Positions 5,951 through 51,700 of a DNA stretch of 64,000 nucleotides are shown here, in pieces. Made by a program: the position numbers and the translations under genes. The DNA is from Apostichopus japonicus (lineage: Eukaryota; Echinodermata; Holothuroidea; Aspidochirotida; Stichopodidae). The notes beneath the pieces are model-generated. The model saw only the letters and a list, made by a program, of their open reading frames with translations, was not told the DNA's origin and made no database searches. Each line of letters starts with the position of its first letter. Positions within the stretch are counted from its first letter, which is position 1. The DNA lies in NCBI RefSeq assembly GCF_037975245.1, contig NC_092562.1:20101054-20165053 (forward strand), given 5' to 3'.

Positions 5951-8900
5951 GTAAGTTGTTTGAATACAGTCTTCATTGAGGTCAGATTAAATTTTTTTTT
6001 TTGAAAACCTATCAAATCTGAATATTTCCCACAAATTTTGACATATCACATTGTAATGCACCATTGAAGAGCACCAGATTTTTTTTTAAAGTTTTTTTAT
6101 AGGACAGATAAGCATCAAATAATTTACCAAATATCAATGCAAAAGGCAGATTCGAACTGTCGATAACGTTGCGGTGTAGCAATTTAATTCAAGCTTGTTT
6201 TATTGCCAGTCACACACTCCCAGACTGAAGAGCATGTATGTATATAAGACCAGTTGAAGCACCTGTCTATATTCGTGATCTTCATTATAATTCTCCTGTC
6301 ATAAAGCGATCCAGGCAGATAGAAATGCAAATTGCGAAAACTTTGTTCAAAGGAATCAGAGGAAGATAAATTAGGTTTGCAATTTGCATAGATTGTAGAC
6401 TGATTTGCAGTCTTTACGTGAAAAATGTGTCTGTTGAACCATTAAAGTGACAGTGCATAAAGCCTTAAAGCTAAAGAATGGTCTTTATTCATAGCAGTTG
6501 CCAATCGTTTTTTCTTTGTTGACAGGCAAAAATGCCAAAGAGAACACATTTTGGACAATTTGAAACTTAAAATGAAAAATTAAAAAACAATTTTTTTTTT
6601 TTTTTGCACATCTTAGTACGGAGCACACCACCGGTTATTACCCTGATCAACGAAACCATTGAGGTTCTCCCGGGGAGTACCTTTAAGATCCACTGCGTGG
6701 CAGCAGGTTCGCCGATGCCCGTGGTGAGATGGCAGGTGGAGGGTATCCAAGTAGGTGACGAGGACGAGGAACCAAAGATTGGAGTTAACACTTATACCGT
6801 GGAAGATATCCAAGAATCTGTTAATTACACCTGTCTGGCGACGAGCACCGGAGGGCTGGACGAGAGAAAACTGGAAGTTATTGTCAAGAGTGAGTACCTT
6901 GTAAGAGGAAGTGGGTTATGACCCAGAAAATAAAGTACAATATTGAGTACCTCGTAAGAGGAGAGGAAGTGGGTTATGACCCAGAAAATGGAGTACAATA
7001 GTGAGTACCTCGTAAAAGGAGAGGAAGTGGGTTATGACCCAGGAAATGGAGTTAAATAGTGAGTACCTCGTAAGAGGAAGTGGGTTATGACCCAGAAAAT
7101 GGAGTACAATAGTGCGTACCTCGTAAGAGGAGAGGAAGTGGGTTATGACCCAGATAATGGAGTACAATAGTGAGTACCTCTCACAAGAGGAAGTGGGTTA
7201 TGTCCCAAAAAATGGAGTACAATAGTGAGTACCTCGTAAGAGGAAGTGGGTTATGACCCAGAAAATGGAGTTCAATAGTGAGTACCTCGTAAGAGGAGAA
7301 GTGGGTTATGACCCAGATAATGGAGTACAATAGTGAGTACCCCGTAAGAGGAAGTGGGTTATGACCAAAGAATATGGAATATGCAATACCACGAAAAGAT
7401 AAAAGATACTAGTCTGTTATGTTTGGTGGATGGGATAGTGCAGTAATAAGAAGAGGAAAGTCATGAACATTTATTACTCAGAAAAATGAGCAAAGCTTAT
7501 CTGTGTATTCTTTATCATATACTTAAAAACACTTTTTTTTACAATTAAACAATTTAACTTTTTGATGATTATTGGACTAAGTACGAATTAGATGATTGTT
7601 ACTTCTGATATCGGTTCATAATTGGAGTACCAATCAATGTTGCTAACTATGGACAATTGGTTCACCCCCTGCTCTAGCTCGACCGGGCCCCCCTGCGCCT
7701 CCAGAAGTCGGACTGGTGACAGCAACCACGATATCACTTACGTGGGCTCCACCCGGTAGAGTTGCAATGAACTCTTACGTGCTCATGTACAAAGAGGCCA
7801 GCTCCACAGGTTCATTTGAGGAGGTGACAGAAATAAGCCAGCAGGGTTACACCGTGGAGAATCTGGAGCCGTACACCGAGTACATCTTTCAGGTAGCAGC
7901 GGTGAATGCTATTGGTAGAGGGAGACCAAGTACAGAAACCAGAGAGAGAACCGGGGAACTTGGTAAGTGGCACAGGGTAGAAAAGAAGCAAGGTAAACAA
8001 AACCAAACGTTGGCAAACGTCACTTTCCCTGCTCGTTTGTGTGATGAAAATGAGCAAAAACAAGACCAAAAGGGGTGATGAACTTATTCAATGGTCTAAG
8101 GGAAAATAACTACTAATAGGGTTGGGGGAAATGTCTTTTGGGGACTTGTTGTCAGATTCATGTTTGGATATATGTGATATAAACTAGAGAGGGAAAAACT
8201 TGTGATCCTTGCTTTAAAGTTATCTGGCCAAGGTTGAGACGGTTGGTATAACTCGAATGTATCTCCATTATCCTTTTCAGCCCCAGCCACTGCCCCACGA
8301 GAGGTCAGCGCCCGGCCGATCAGCGCCAGCACCATCTTTATCCGGTGGGCCCCACCGAGGAAGCCCAATGGAGTCATCCAAGGTTACAATGTGTACTATA
8401 CCACGAGACCCTCTCAGGGGCTCAGCGCATGGTTCAAACATAGTGTTTCTGGTGACAGCGAGCGTGTGACTACCATCAGTGACCTCACCACCATGCAGAT
8501 TTATACCATCAGTGTGTCTGCGTACACCTCAGTTGGTGAGGGTCCAGCCTCAGATCACATCCAAGTGAAAACGCAACAGGGAGGTAAGTTTAGTCTTCAA
8601 ATCTGTTACTTTGGTATTCTTAGCTAAGGAAGGTAAAATGTGTTCTTTTCCATTTTTATCATATTTATCACAAACATAACTATCATCTGGCTGTGAACCT
8701 GAATGTTTTCATTGTCTGTCACCTAACAGTTCCCGGACAACCCGAAAACTTTGCGGGTCAAGCCATTTCGGCCACCGAGATCCAACTCACCTGGACGATG
8801 CGAGACAATGTCCAGATCACCCGTTACGAGCTGTACTACAACACCTCGAGTTCAGGCTCGGAGGAGCAGTACCGGGCCATCTCCCCGAGTAACTCCTTCA

Positions 8901-35900: not shown

Positions 35901-38900
35901 ATATTTTTCATTTTACCTCCATTCAAATATTATCTCTCTGTTTTCATTGGTTGTTTTAAACAATTCCGCACGTTTCGCTTGCAGAGATTGGCCAACATCA
36001 AAGCACAGCCATCTCAGTTTGTCAGTGCTAGTCTTCCAGCCAACAAATTCAAGAACAGATTGGTCAACATTCTTCCATGTAAGTATTTAAAAATTAATGT
36101 TTCAAAAAAAGTTGTGAGGCAGTCCTTTAATTCTTTATACTTGCATGTGTAATACCATTAGTGCAATAAATTTATCAGTAGAATTTGAAGAAAAAAAATC
36201 TTACTTGCAAAGCTTGCAAGGAATTCATAAAACCTGCTACCAATGTGTTTTTAATTCCCAAGTTTAATAATCTTTGATATGGAATGTGCAGTCGTCTCAA
36301 CGTCTCAAAATATCTTTTAATGACAAGGCTGCAACACACTAGCAATGTATTTATGTCTTCATGTTTTGTACAATGGGGAACATGTTGTGTAGCAATTATC
36401 ACAAATACTTGTATCCATGGTAGTTTTCTTAGCTAACAAATTGCTCTCATGCTCTTTATATCTTTCTCAAATAGCTTTTCTTTAAATGTGGCAGGTGGAG
36501 GGGAGAGTCCTTTCCTCTTCCAAACCATTTCTCCCCCCTCCCCCTCCCCCTAATTGTTTTGTTGCTACGTTTTACTTCTTTTTTCCTTGTAGTTGAACAG
36601 TCTCGAGTTTACCTGCAGCCTATCCGAGGTGTAGAAGGATCAGATTACATTAATGCTAGTCACATTCACGTAAGAATACTTTTTTCTCTTTGTCTCTTAA
36701 AATCTGCCCTCCCCATAATCTAATTTTGCGTTCCTGATGAGAAAAACATGAGGACGAAACATTTCCCGCAATTTTAGTGATAGTGAAAGTCGTCAAGCGA
36801 TTACTTAAACGAGGAATTCCGTTTGTAAAATATTCTGTTTTTCTTAGTTGTATATTTAATAGCCAATTTAATTGTCGAGAACAGTCTCTCACTTACTTTA
36901 AAGATTAAGATCTTTTGCCATTGAATGTTTACAAAGGGTTTATTTGCTTTCCTTTTCCTGTATCCAGGGCTACAGACAGAGGAATGCTTTCATCGCTACT
37001 CAGGGTCCGTTGGCTGAGACCACTGAAGACTTCTGGAGGATGCTCTGGGATCAGAATTCAACCATTGTAGTCATGTTAACCAAACTTAGAGAGATGAACA
37101 GGGTAAAATTATAAGAAACATTAATTCAAAAAGTCAAAAGTCATTACCTCACTTCGAGAAGATTGTGATCCAAATTTTGATCAATTCATTCACAACTTTG
37201 TCTTCATATGAGCAGCAAAGTTTTATATATTGTTTTGAAAAGATATCAAAACATGACTGCTTGCTTAAATGCAACTCCTTCCCCATCTATGCTATGCCAG
37301 TCTCATAAAGTTTGTGAACCTCTGGAAGTATCAGTTTACCTTTTCGGAGAGACGCACTCACTTCTTGAGGTAACACCACATGATCACATTGTGACAGTCG
37401 CAGTGTGTAAGGGCACCTGACCTTGAGAGTGGATCATCAAGTTATATGGGTTTTTGTGCCCAACATCTTATCTTGGGTGACTTACATTATAAAGTCCCTT
37501 TTGAAGTGCATGTCGATGTGATTATGGTTTGAATTTTTGGTTTTTTAATTTTTGTTCATTGCTCCTTTTTTGATCCTCAGGATAAATGTCACCAGTATTG
37601 GCCGGCAGAGAGGTCCGCTCGCTACCAATACTTCGTGGTGGATCCTATGTCCGAGTATAACATGCCACAGTACGTGCTGCGGGAATTCAAAGTAACCGAT
37701 GCAAGGGTGAGCATTTCTCAGAGGTCTCTGGGGGGATTCATTTCGGTCTCGGCAAACCTTCCAAGTATATTAACACAGTAACATATTTGACAGAATTATC
37801 TCCGTATATAAGACACCTAAGCCAAGAGATAATTAGAGTATTATCGGTCATTTTTTTGCTCTTCCTTCAAACAGGATGGACAGTCACGAACCATCAGACA
37901 GTTTCAGTTCACCGAGTGGCCGGAGCAGGGCGTCCCTAAATCTGGAGAGGGATTCATTGACTTTATCGGTCAAGTATTGAAAACCAAAGATCAATTTGGT
38001 CAAGATGGACCGGTCACAGTACACTGCAGGTAAAGAAACCGTCAGTACAGGCAGACTGCCCCCCCCCCTCCCCCAACAGAAAGTATAAATTTTCAGCACC
38101 TGCTTGAGATGGACTTTATCAGTTGCTTGGTGACCTTCGACGTTATCATCCCATGATAATGTAGATCAGAGGTGGGCACTAAAGGGATCTTGTGGGTCAC
38201 ACAAAACATTTTGTACCTAATCCAAGGTCCACAACACTTAAAGATGTACCTACTCCCTTCAAATGGGAATCTTGCATTATTCGTTCAAAAACACAGAGAT
38301 GAGAGGAAGCTCTGTAGGCACATTGTGTTTTGTTGAAATATCTTATAAAAATTACGCCCTTCAACTCCCAAAATTATACATATATCATGTTTTTCCTTGC
38401 CATATGGTTCTGCCGCTCGCATCGATAGGGTCTTGAAAACATATTCCTTGGACCACACAGAATGTTTTTTGAGCGGGCCGCACTCTGATGTGGATCATGG
38501 AGATTAATCATGTCGACTACTGGAAAAAGGAAAAGAAAAAAGGCCAAATTTTTGAAAATCTACCTGTTTAATTTATGCATGCAGTTGAAACTAATTTGAG
38601 AAGTATCTTGTAGACTAAAATTTGAGGAACCAAATGGGATGTCATCAAGGACTTGCTGTTTCAATTTCTTTGGTGAAAGTAAAGTCTAAGGGTGGGGAGT
38701 GAGGGGGGGGTGTGGGCAGTCTTAGTTTGATTATTCAAAATCTTATTGTAATACTCCATACAGGTTGCAAGAAGCTTTATTTAAAGGGAACAATTGGTCT
38801 ACTGGTGTAGTCTACTGGTGTAGTCTACTGGTGTAGTCTACTGGTGTAGTCTACTGGTGTAGTCTACTGGTCATGCGTTTGTCTCCTTGTGGTTGCTAGT

Positions 38901-41900
38901 GATTGTATGAAATCTTAACTGCAGTTCAGTCATTTCAGTCACTGAATTTGATCAATTTTCTGTCCTTTTCTTAAATAGTTCCGGAGTTGGCAGGACAGGA
39001 GTCTTCGTCACTCTGAGTATCGTACTCGAGAGGATGAAATATGAAGGAGTGGTCGACATCTTTCAGACAGTTAAAATGCTGCGCACTCAAAGACCAGCCA
39101 TGGTCCAAACTGAGGTAATTAGTCTCCCTCACCCACCCCCTGGTCATTGACCAAAAAGATCAAGAAATAATGGAAAAGTGGCATTTTGTGCAGGTGGTTT
39201 TGAAATGTATGTCATAGGAAGGTACCAAGTTAAGACACATTCAAAACTCTACTATTTGTAGCCCTGTGTTTGAGTTCATGACTAGTTTAAATTTGTATTT
39301 GACAATGGCATTTCAAACAGAACAACAAAAATTTATTGGTTCCTTGCTGAAAGCAAAGGAACCTATGTATTCAGGTTGGCGTGTGTGTGTGTGTGTGTGT
39401 GTGTGTGACGCTTAAGCTTGTATGCACGATAACTCAACAAGGGATTGACTGATCATGATCAAACTTGGTGGGTGGGTGGCCCATAGTGAGTAGATGAACC
39501 CTATTGTTTTTGGTGCCCACAAAGGTCACCAAAGGTCAGTTATGGTCCAAAAACCCAAAATACTAAAACTGCAATAACTCCCAGTGCCAATGTGCAACAA
39601 GGTTGATATTTTGGGACAAGTTGTGAACTGGTTAGGGCAATATTTTGAAACTTAACGGTCATGTGATCTGAGGTCAACAAAGGTCAATTAATGTTAAAAA
39701 ACTAGTATTTTTGCGATAACTTGAGAACGAATTGTCCGTTAGGGTTGGGAGTTGCTTCAGTGTAATCCAATTGTCGACCCACATCTGGGTGACCCTTGAC
39801 CTCAATTTGACCTCTGGTGACCTTTTCATGTTTTGGGGATTTTTACAGTTTCGATGCTATTTTCAGATGTCAAAGGTACCTTCCGATCATAAATATCGAT
39901 AGGTTGACCCTCGTGTGACCTTTGTGTGCGAACTTATATGGGGTCAAAGTTTTCGGTCAGAGTTAGGATGGCTGTACAGACTTATCGTGTTGATTTTTGG
40001 AATCAGCAGATCAAACTACATTTGAAACCAAGGTCAAAAGGTCAAAGGTCACATTAGAAAAAATGTGCTTAGTTTGGGAGAAAACGGGCGAAAAAGGAAA
40101 TGTTTGGTTTTGATGCTAGATTTGGATATCAAAGGTACCTTCCGATCAAAAATGTCAATGGGTTGACACCCGGGTGACCTTTGTGTGTAAAGTTATACAA
40201 GGTCAAAGTTAATTTTCAGACATTTAATGCAATAACTCCCAGGGCCAAGGTGTAACAAGGTTGATATTTTGGGACAAGTTGCAAATGGTATAGAGGAATA
40301 TTTTCAAACTTAACGGTCATGTGATCCGAGGTCATCAAAGGTCAATTAATGTTAAAAAACTAGTATTTTCGGTGAGAAAATGGGCAAAGAAAAAATGTTT
40401 GAATTCTTACAGTTTTGATGCACTGTATTCACGTCTCAACAATCAAAAATGTCAATAGGTTTACCCCAGGTGACCTTTGTGTGTGAAGTTTTATGAGGTC
40501 AAATGAAATTTTCAGACATTTAGTGCAATAATTCCCAGTTCCAAGGTGTGACACGGTTGATATTTTGGGACAAGTTGCAAATGGTATAGGGGAATATTTT
40601 CAAACTTAACGGTCATGTGATCCGAGGTCACCAAAGGTCAATTAATGATAAAAAACTAGTATTTTTGCGATAACTTGAGAACGAACTGTCCGTTAGGGTT
40701 GGGAGTTGCTTCAATTTAATCCAATTGTCGACCCATATCTGGGTGACCCTTGACCTCAATTTGACCTCTGGTGACCTTTTCATGTTTTGGGGATTTTTAC
40801 AGTTTCGATGCTATTTTCAGATGTCAAAGGTACCTTCTGATCATAAATGTCAATGGGTTAACCCCCGTGTGACCTTCGTGTGCGGAGTTATACGAGGTCA
40901 AAGTTAATTTTCAGACATTTAATGCAATAACTCTCAGTTCCAAGGTGTGACAAGGTTGATATTTTGGGACAAGTTGCAAATGGTATAGGGGAATATTTTC
41001 AAACTTAACGGTCATGTGATCCGAGGTCACCAAAGGTCAATTAATGATAAAAAACTAGTATTTTGCGATAACTTGAGAACAAATTGTCCGTTAGGGTTGG
41101 GAGTTGCTTCAATGTAATCCAATTGTCAACCCGCATCTGGGTGACCCTTGACCTCAATTTGACCTCTGGTGACCTTTTCGTGTTTTGGGGATTTTTACAG
41201 TTTCGATGCTATTTTCAGATGTCAAAGGTGCCTTCTGATCATAAATGTCAATAGGTTGACCCCAATATGACCTTCGTGTGCGAAGTTATACGAGTTCAAA
41301 GTTAAATAATATTAATGAGGTCACAGGTCAAACGTGAAAAAGTCCCAAGTTGCAATAACTTAGCTACTATTTATTGGAATTTCGTCAAACTTGGTATGAT
41401 GATATTGGTAGATAGTCTCCACACACTGATGTGTGTTGCAATTGATATCATGCATGTTTATAAGGGGGGGGGGGGGGCTAGCATTATTTCGTTATGAAAA
41501 GTTTGTTAGCACAATAACTCAACAAGGGAATGACCAATCATTACCATACTTGGTGAGTGGGTGGCCCATAGTAAGTAGATTATCCCTGTTGATGTTGGTG
41601 CTCAGTTCATGAATATTAATGAGGTCATGGGGTCAAACGTGAAATACTCCAAATTGCAATTACTTGGCTACTATTACTAGTCGGAATTTCGTCAAACTTG
41701 GTATGATGATAATGGTAGATAGTCTTCACACACTGATGTGTGTTGCAATTGATATCAGGGCTTAGCATTACTTTGGCAACAAAGGTTTGTGAGCATAAAT
41801 TACTGTTGTTGTATTAGGGCTTTTTTAGAAATTTCCCTATGAATGGAACTAATGAACAGCAGCAAGGAACCATGAAATGTTTTCATTCTGGTTTTTGAAA

Positions 41901-48700: not shown

Positions 48701-51700
48701 TTAAACCTTTCTTGGACAGACATTCTGATTGGTTGAACAAGCAGCTGGAGGTGTGCCTTGATAGGTTTCACAGACCAATGAGAGGAGGTCAGACTGTGCT
48801 TTATCCTGGATAGCATCTGTGTGTACCTATGAAAATACAAGAAATTCAATCATGTTACTTACTGAATATTCAAAGTTAGAGATTGAAATAAACAACACCC
48901 CACCTGCCTCTTAAGCCCCCACCCCACCCCCTGGTTATGCTCACGTACAAGTCACAGTTAGTGACTTTGCACCTTTTTCAGCTTTCTACCTTCAGCCTTT
49001 AACAACAGAACTTTCTTAAGTCATGATGCAATTGTTATGAGAAATAATGAAACAAACTATCAACATTTCTTTTAACTCATGTGAAGACATTAAATTGATA
49101 AAACAACTAGCTACTGAACCGGGACTGCAAATATTGCATTTTCATGTTAACTGTGCTTCACTTATTATCAAGCCATTTAAAACTGCCATATGATAGGACA
49201 ACCCTCTATCTGACTAAGTTTTTTTACTATTTGTTCACAATCGTTTTTTCGCTGCTCCTTTTTCAATTTGCGAGTTACATATCAACTGTTTCATGCAGTG
49301 CAGTAAATTGTGTGTCCCTCAAAAAATTCAATCCTATCGGAAAGGAAAGAACTTTTTTATCCAGTTTCATAATTTTCTAGTGCGATTTTAGTGAATTGAA
49401 ATTGCAGAGTATGTTTTCACGGGACCCCTTTTTTTTCATGGACTGAGCTTGGTAGGCCACCATATTCAGGCACCAAGTTATGACAATACTCCATATTAGT
49501 ATACTCACCCCATTCAGTCACCATATGATGACAATACTCCATTATACCATACCATACTATACCATATACTATACCATACTTGCATTACACTCACCACATT
49601 CAGTCACCATCTTATGAAAATACTCCATTATACCATACCATACTATACCATACTTGCATTAAACTATACTCACCCCATTCAATGTTATCCAAGGTGTATA
49701 CTGATGAGGAGGATCAAGGGATTCCGTTCGCATCGCCATCTCATGTTCCAATTTGTTACCAAGGCTAGAATTGACACAACTTGAAACTTGATCGTAGTTC
49801 AGGTCAAACTGAGCACAGCACTGTTGAGAATAAGATTGTATCCAATACATTAGACAAGGTGAAGGAAAAAGAAAACAGAAAGTGGTAAACTCAGTACAGT
49901 AGCTAGAGTCATAACGGAAGCATAATGGTTAGAAACAGGGACGTAAGAACCATTTCATCCTGCTCAGGAGGGGTAGGGGGAGGGGAATATTATGTTAAGT
50001 CTTGGAGGGTAGCAGTGGTTCTTTCCATTTTAAAAAACTTTGGAGGGTGCTTAAATGATGTAACTTTTTTATGTTGAGAATTTTCAACTGTTTAGGTCAT
50101 ACTGCACATGCATGTTGTATATTTATGTACTGTAAACTAGGATTTTTTGGAACTTCAATGATTACAAAGAAAAGTAAATGTACATAGTGTAATAAAAAAT
50201 AAATAAATAGAAAATAGTGTAATTTGTACCGCATTGTACTGCAAGATTTGGGATTCTGAATAGCAACTCCCTGAATAAGAATACCAGATCAAATGACCAA
50301 AACACATTGATCACTCTCATTAAAGTTTCTAAAAGTTCAATTCAAGGATGTCCTCTGAGCTATGCCAGAGATATCATTGTTAATAACCTAAGGATATTTA
50401 ATAAGCCTTGTGCTTCTTTGCTTATCTTAATTTGCCCTTTTGAATGCTATCAGTCCATGAGGTCATGATATGGACATACAAATTATAGAAGTCACCAATT
50501 CAATTGCAGCAATTATATAGGCCTAACAACTTTGCTAACAATGATAGAACTGCGTGATGAAATCAATTGTGGCAACTTGTTTGTCACTGTCAGTATTTAA
50601 TTCACTGGACACTTCAAGTGGTCCCCAAGTACAGGCTATTCTACACCAGATCTAATGTATAATGAATGTATTGGCTTAGGTAGAAACCCTCTCTCCCTCA
50701 CAAGCCCTAGTCCCCCCCCCCCCTTCCCTTTCTTTCCAATGGCTAGGCCACCGACAGATGTTTTTACCAATTGAAAAGCACAGTAAAATACCTTTGAGGC
50801 TGATGTTGTTGGATCATCCGAAGCTTCCATACAATGAATACTTTCAAAAGCAGTTGTGAAGTCTTTGGCAACGTACAAAATGCAGGTCTCAAGAATATTT
50901 CCCAGGCACTCCTGGGCACCATGCTGGCATGTGAATACCCATTTGTTGTCTACAAGGTTCTCCTAAAGTAGAGGAAGGAATGATTGAAAACTGGAACTGT
51001 ACAGGTTGATGTTACCTTTGCTTGTACTCGCACTGATGGATTTGTACTCATAATCTAGGCAATTGAGCATTGATATGTACTACAACAAGATGAATGCATA
51101 CCGATACTAGCACTCCTACAGTACTAGTACTACAAGGGGAATCTTAATAGAAGTTGTGTCCATAACTGCACTAGAAGTACTAAATATGCCACTATTATCA
51201 TCTTGTTAAAAGCATTGAAGACTCGCTCCAAACCGCTTGCAGCCATCTGAAAAAGTTAACTTTCTGTTGCTAATTGCAAGTGACGTTTTGTTTGTGTCGC
51301 TGCAAAATGCAGACAGTAATGAAACGTGATACCTTGTTATCTTTTATCTAGACCTGAGATGTCCATCGCTGTATCGTTTCTACACTGTGCTGTGGGTATT
51401 GACCGCAGCTGTATGTATACTGACTGTACACTAGTGTCTAATTACCGACGGTAGCAAGCTGTGTGTGTATTCTCTGGGATCGATGGTGGTGTCTAACACT
51501 TCTGTTACACCTCATTCGAAACTAGGTCAGATTACCGGCATTAGACTTTTCTTTTTGCACGAGTCTTCACACCCTTTAGCAAGAATGCTTTGATTTGCTA
51601 TCTACCTCCTGTACAGGACATTTTTTCCCAACACTTTTTCTTTATGTATGTATGTATGTATGTATGTATGTATGTATGTATGTATGTATGTATATCTGAT

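Follow-up and report, generated by a model that had tools for sequence, protein, structure and literature searches.

A tandem array spanning the exon 4 splice donor of a GILT gene in Apostichopus japonicus and similar arrays at other exon ends

The question raised by this locus is why the end of a coding exon, together with its splice donor, should be found again several times in the intron that follows. In the window (the whole stretch of DNA analysed here, 64,000 nucleotides of Apostichopus japonicus), such copies occur behind exon 4 of a GILT gene, and the earlier note on this DNA had linked them with repeats at a donor of a second gene and suggested a recurring donor-linked mechanism. Coordinates of the features are collected in Table 1.

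Table 1. Features of the GILT exon 4 donor and its array, and of the phosphatase donor (window positions; a slash within a sequence marks the exon-intron or exon-exon border, except in TATGG/TATAG)
Feature	Position	Strand	Evidence
GILT exon 4, 49 codons, ends ...PWITLNG	49674..49820	-	translation and PDB GILT match over exons 4 and 5
Authentic 5' splice site (predicted) AATGGG/GTGAGT, intron from 49673	49668..49679	-	exon 5 continues in frame (NG/VHTD)
GILT intron 4, 847 bp	48827..49673	-	
GILT exon 5, coding part (VHTDAIQ...RKV)	48704..48826	-	translation, PDB match
GILT repeat unit 1, 79 bp, donor-spanning	49603..49681	-	
GILT repeat unit 2, 86 bp, donor-like AATGTG/GTGAGTGTA	49517..49602	-	
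GILT repeat unit 3, 48 bp, without the TATGG stretch, 17 donor-spanning bases exact	49469..49516	-	
GILT fourth unit, decayed start, 9/12 to unit 1	49457..49468	-	
TATGG/TATAG sub-repeats of GILT units 1 and 2	49543..49653	-	TRF rows 49543-49580 and 49630-49653
Receptor phosphatase (classed by eye as LAR-type): final base of the exon, with a ~58-bp minisatellite that runs up to the donor	6889..7378	+	TRF

The copies behind GILT exon 4 were found as the earlier note had described them. The 17-mer TGAATGGGGTGAGTATA, consisting of the final 8 bases of the exon and the initial 9 bases of the intron (49681-49665, minus strand), recurs identically 165 bp into intron 4 (49516-49500). A near copy lies between the two (49602-49586; 15/17 bases, 88%), and a decayed copy lies beyond (49468-49457; 9/12 against the initial 12 bases of the 17-mer). 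The exon itself is intact. Its translation (CCAQFDL...PWITLNG), together with that of exon 5, could be aligned with the PDB GILT chain 6nwx across the junction (E 6.4e-12), with gaps just behind the junction. The last 8 bases of the exon are part of the repeat unit, and upstream of them the exon shows no resemblance to the end of the unit; thus, the duplication breakpoint most likely lies inside the exon. It should be noted that TRF, run with a minimum score of 40, missed the 80-bp array in the window and listed only its TATGG/TATAG sub-repeats, and 17-mer recurrence was therefore adopted instead. Exact recurrence of a 17-mer at 20-300 bp was observed at 0.9% of positions in the real window and at none in three order-2 Markov versions of it, which indicates that real repeats are common in this stretch. 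The window is AT-rich (GC 0.375), with values of 0.44 for the GILT exon end and 0.37 for the intron.

The origin of the array was examined in the whole assembly (671,581,487 bases in 35 contigs; simple repeats and very common words skipped). The sole full-length match was the locus itself, and a dispersed element as the source was set aside, the other 24 matches being partial and 71-92% identical in this search without simple repeats. A Pfam search of the assembly for GILT revealed two genes with four exon matches. In the paralogue (contig C2 near 22.08 Mb), exon 4 is 51% identical, the donor has an equal position (NG/GTAAGT) and the exon end WVTVNG corresponds to WITLNG. No repeat is present at the paralogue donor, where the best recurrence of the 17-mer was mismatched at 7/17 bases, and the paralogue was thus ruled out as a source of the array. 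Considering that just 8 exon bases are common to the units and that the exon upstream of them is unmatched, the array might be purely intronic, with a coincidental match to the exon or with an intronic repeat recruited as donor. However, unit 3 matches all 8 exon bases as well as the donor, 22-85 exon bases are common to the units in several other genes (see below), and the coding end of GILT both corresponds to that of the paralogue and aligns to a solved GILT. A purely intronic array therefore appears very improbable.

Reading beyond the exon 4 donor gives V S I V and then TAA, in agreement with the four codons stated in the earlier note. If the unit-3 donor were used, exon 4 would become 165 nt longer, this TAA included, and the coding part of exon 5 would be lost. 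The spare donors might then be functional, a switch to the unit-3 donor leading to a premature stop, lower or truncated GILT and a regulated poison splice form. The 17 donor-spanning bases are exact in unit 3 and changed in unit 2, which is readable as selection on unit 3 and counts against the reading that we prefer, namely ordinary local duplication (see below). On the other hand, the GILT paralogue does without the repeat, both copy number and donor quality vary across a family of FN3-domain exons with arrays of the same kind, and stops are common in intronic decoys. A functional role is thus improbable, and the extra GILT donors are probably decoys. Tandem arrays are a type of sequence prone to assembler error, and an assembly artefact should also be considered here. 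We regard it as extremely improbable: the GILT copies differ from one another, the array is short, and the assembly probably corresponds to the HiFi assembly described in PMC10344927.

The second case in the window concerns a gene for a receptor tyrosine phosphatase at 5782-39114 on the plus strand, which has Ig, FN3 and PTP exons and by eye is of the LAR type. Its FN3 exons are also among the FN3 matches listed for the assembly. The 58-bp array of this gene (TRF 6904-7378) reaches the donor at 6889/6890 and has 1-6 exon bases in common with later units; that is, it abuts the donor rather than spanning it. The best recurrence of the 17-mer at this donor had 4 mismatches, because the array begins at the last exon base. 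The earlier statement that repeats include the 5' splice site in two genes of the window therefore holds for GILT, which spans its donor, but not in the strict sense for the phosphatase. The accompanying statement that different genes have no unit sequence in common was borne out, the compared units being unrelated. Two further repeats were seen near this gene, a perfect 13-bp repeat with 5.8 copies between phosphatase exons (38797-38871) and a 398-bp unit present twice (92% match, TRF) downstream of them (40442-41305).

If splice donors were preferred seeds of tandem repeats, through GT-rich slippage, R-loops or pausing at exon ends, donor 17-mers should recur more often than other positions. 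Donors were assigned by use of a general donor weight matrix. For the phosphatase, 24 exon ends were used, one of which was reassigned to a nearer site; the count leaves out three other phosphatase ends that were uncertain and a tail string for which no match was found. FN3-domain exons were taken from two sets, 28 loci (27 on C23 and one on C17) and 40 exon flanks chosen regardless of repeats out of 150 FN3 matches listed; 7 of the former and 9 of the latter had no donor assigned and were omitted. Recurrence was searched in both directions for the 21 donors of the FN3 loci, nine of which (the set being mostly from C23) are identical in sequence, and downstream only for the donors of the window and of the FN3 flanks. 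The assigned donors of L114, L123, L132 and GILT exon 2 are doubtful.

With at most one mismatch at 20-300 bp, a single recurrence was found among the 28 window donors (that of GILT, which had given rise to the test) and another among the 52 FN3 donors (the binomial figures used n=53), or 2 of 80 donors in all (2.5%, one of the two being GILT). At the same threshold, the background in the window was 2.0% for plus-strand GT positions (n=3821) and 1.1% when every position of both strands was counted, so that this direct test argues against donors as preferred seeds. At most three mismatches being allowed, 3 of 52 FN3 donors recurred, all belonging to one paralogue family. In other samples, GT positions recurred in 1/1669, 0/643, 97/3436 and 38/729 cases; the background is thus very uneven, and the last sample, which includes three FN3 arrays, leans slightly towards donors as seeds. 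Even if the phosphatase is counted leniently, the probability of at least two recurrences among 28 donors is 0.11 at a background of 2% and 0.20 at 3%, selection of striking cases being ignored in these figures. A donor-specific process is therefore not required to explain two cases in 64 kb.

The FN3 exons also provided examples of the GILT anatomy. Three paralogues among the 40 FN3 exons had a donor-spanning array of ~131 bp units. The family as observed comprises five FN3-domain paralogues with this unit in common (L143-L147, C2 29.8-31.3 Mb), two of which were added for comparison. Within the fetched stretches they contain 10, 4, 2, 4 and 4 copies, and thus differ in copy number; between 16 and 85 exon bases are in common between units. 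In L144, one of the five, the first donor reads GTTAGA, a weaker site than those of later copies. No copy of the 131-bp unit was found in three further flanks, which belong to a different FN3 exon (L148-L150). A separate row of FN3 exons on C23 (15071541-15080963), spaced every ~510 bp and including nine with identical donors, looks like whole-exon tandem duplication with the introns included.

Recurrence at other genes was examined by searching the assembly for triple AGGTRAGT words at a spacing of 30-60 or 61-91 bp and for triple CAGGTAAGT at a spacing of 25-55 bp. The 5' edges of 23 arrays among the matches listed were read, corresponding to 21 distinct arrays after L043/L044 and L040/L101 had been merged. 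Nine of these 21, among the matches listed, start where an apparent coding exon ends, and six of the nine are supported by databases: YJU2 (Pfam Saf4_Yju2, 2.8e-12, and a PDB YJU2 match), an amino-acid transporter pair (Aa_trans, 3.6e-9 for L040, the exon of L101 being nearly the same), glycosyltransferase family 21 (Pfam, 1.3e-10), a tyrosine phosphatase or PTP (Pfam, 1.7e-10), KRI1 (Pfam, 5.6e-28) and SPTLC1 (4e-5 to PDB serine palmitoyltransferase 1). The remaining three, L094 (which we take to be VPS39), L097 and L099, have apparent coding ends by open frame alone; none of them had a Pfam match, NCBIfam gave none for L094 and L097, and PDB gave none for L094. As for the other 12 arrays, four (L041, L047, L095 and L096) were unclear and eight (L042, L043/L044, L045, L048, L050, L093, L098 and L100) had no visible exon.

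The number of exon bases common to the first and a later unit varied considerably between these genes: 2-4 in SPTLC1, 8 in both GILT and PTP, 21-22 in Aa_trans, 23-24 in YJU2, 31 in KRI1, 33 in the glycosyltransferase, 35 in L094, 39-40 in L097 and 62 in L099. GC content was 0.43-0.52 in the array-bearing exons and 0.28-0.52 in the introns. The array of YJU2, a splicing factor (L037, C1:1922719 on), consists of the exon end and donor in ~40-bp units with at least 12 donor words. That of KRI1 (L092, C2:28048938-28050349) contains the exon end and donor with ~27 copies of CAGGTAAGT at 54-bp spacing, seen as 25 overlapping triples.

Several comparisons bear on whether these arrays start at exon ends more often than would be expected. 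Real-donor-like isolated donor words numbered 10 of 40 (13 with probable ones; judged by eye), against the 9 of 21 arrays starting at apparent exons; this leans towards donors as seeds but is not significant (Fisher p 0.24-0.58), and the exon calls were partly made by eye. Pfam matches at E<=1e-3 were obtained for 5 of 21 arrays (12 submitted) and 5 of 40 isolated words (17 submitted; L090 probably lies inside an exon). Counts of three-copy trains at a spacing of 30-60 bp were 1100 per 44,102 words for AGGTRAGT (24.9 per 1000), 770 per 59,166 for the reversed word (13.0), 771 per 47,065 for the permuted word ATGGTRGA (16.4) and 754 per 40,317 for the reverse of the latter (18.7), a 1.3-1.9-fold excess over the three control words. 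At the wider spacing of 61-91 bp, 1191 trains were found for AGGTRAGT versus 773 for its reverse (27.0 versus 13.1 per 1000 words, or 2.1-fold), which also leans slightly towards the seeding of repeats by donors. For CAGGTAAGT, the numbers were 61 versus 50 for the reversed word, unscaled by word number, and count against it.

Raw train counts are, however, dominated by a few large arrays, and counting arrays among the matches listed gave a mixed picture. On C1 there were 5 arrays for AGGTRAGT, 2 for its reverse and 6 for ATGGTRGA, so that the donor word reached only ~0.9-fold of the permuted word. On C1 and C2:0-11.35 Mb taken together, 11 donor-word arrays stood against 6 reversed-word arrays among the matches listed, or 2.5-fold per word, and this excess rises to 4.9-fold without the three reversed-word arrays that are microsatellite-like. 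The word controls thus disagree, from ~0.9-fold (permuted) to 2.5-fold or more (reversed) in the donors' favour. This suggests a donor preference of about two-fold or more if the reversed word is used as control, and little or none with the permuted word. On the basis of all these results, we consider preferential seeding at splice donors possible but rather unlikely. With regard to the recurring donor-linked mechanism proposed earlier, recurrence was clearly observed (9/21 arrays and five FN3 paralogues), but the direct count of 2/80 donors, against a background of 1.1-2.0%, does not point to donor specificity.

The GILT array is, in our view, quite likely the product of ordinary local tandem duplication, the unit happening to span the exon edge, and hence a case of minisatellite growth at an exon edge ('exon stuttering'), in a genome with many arrays of this kind. 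The in-register GILT copies and a donor recurrence near the window background are in favour of this reading. A local tandem duplication, by replication slippage or unequal exchange, would have started the array, with breakpoints 8 bases inside exon 4 and ~70 bases into intron 4, and further rounds of duplication would have brought it to three to four copies. Selection on both protein and donor would keep the first of these in place; the remaining copies would be intronic and drift freely, with decoy donors normally unused. The copies, their unit structure, the intact exon, the paralogue free of the repeat and the like anatomy of other genes were observed directly; we infer both this mechanism and the use of the first donor. 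Such a duplication at an exon edge would do no harm while splicing keeps to the first donor, since all additional copies then fall within the intron, and selection on the first copy combined with drift of the rest would leave an array that shows an edge at the exon.

Previously described systems resemble the GILT array to different degrees. In the literature searched, no paper brought minisatellites together with exon-intron boundaries, splice donors and tandem repeats. Like intronic minisatellites or VNTRs, the GILT array consists of units some tens of bases long, arranged head to tail and varying in length from copy to copy; unlike them, its first unit contains coding bases and a functional donor, the latter as predicted from the frame of exon 5. 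In intron gain via tandem duplication, as described for potato RdRp in the available part of PMC4974935, a tandem duplication across an exon-intron border also duplicates the splice site. In contrast with that case, the GILT copies follow the original donor inside an intron that was already present, and no new intron was seen.

The closest counterpart is exon stuttering. According to the available part of PMC12954441 (Genome Biol Evol 2026), it was described in chicken for 236 introns, 190 of them on dot chromosomes, with exon parts of 20-187 bp (median 36), a median of 4 copies and high length polymorphism; the same part gives birds as its range, plus gerbil genes as an exception among other vertebrates, and GC-richness as a suspected factor. 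As in those avian cases, insofar as described there, the exon edge and splice site are tandemly copied into the intron, the exon is intact and a paralogue is free of the repeat. In GILT and the other genes here, the repeat block includes coding-exon sequence along with the splice site, and behind GILT exon 4 the copies are clustered locally in the intron as an imperfect tandem repeat. Two differences should be noted. First, the 8 exon bases of GILT are below the published range of 20-187 bp, which is a detection threshold (the screen took exon matches of that length with a bit score above 42.1) and not a definition; above 20 bp, the present genome has YJU2 (24), KRI1 (31), the glycosyltransferase (33) and FN3 exons (up to 85). 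Second, the avian cases are associated with GC-rich dot chromosomes, an association that is not part of the definition as given there, and the present window is AT-rich. The occurrence of the same anatomy in such a genome argues against GC-richness as a requirement.

A wider reading would be that exon-edge stuttering is genome-wide in this echinoderm, independent of GC content and accompanied by a real donor preference, and that it affects core genes with many intact donors; taken as a whole, this is doubtful. If true, the spliceosome must ignore rows of intact donors in favour of the first (in YJU2, SPTLC1 and KRI1, the last with ~27). The arrays provide natural tests of splicing choice among identical donors with the same upstream exon context, and they extend a repeat behaviour reported for birds and gerbils to an AT-rich invertebrate genome. 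For the locus itself, the GILT observation is sound and the phenomenon is recurrent. With its 8 exon bases, GILT is a marginal example of exon stuttering and belongs to a very recently described kind of repeat.
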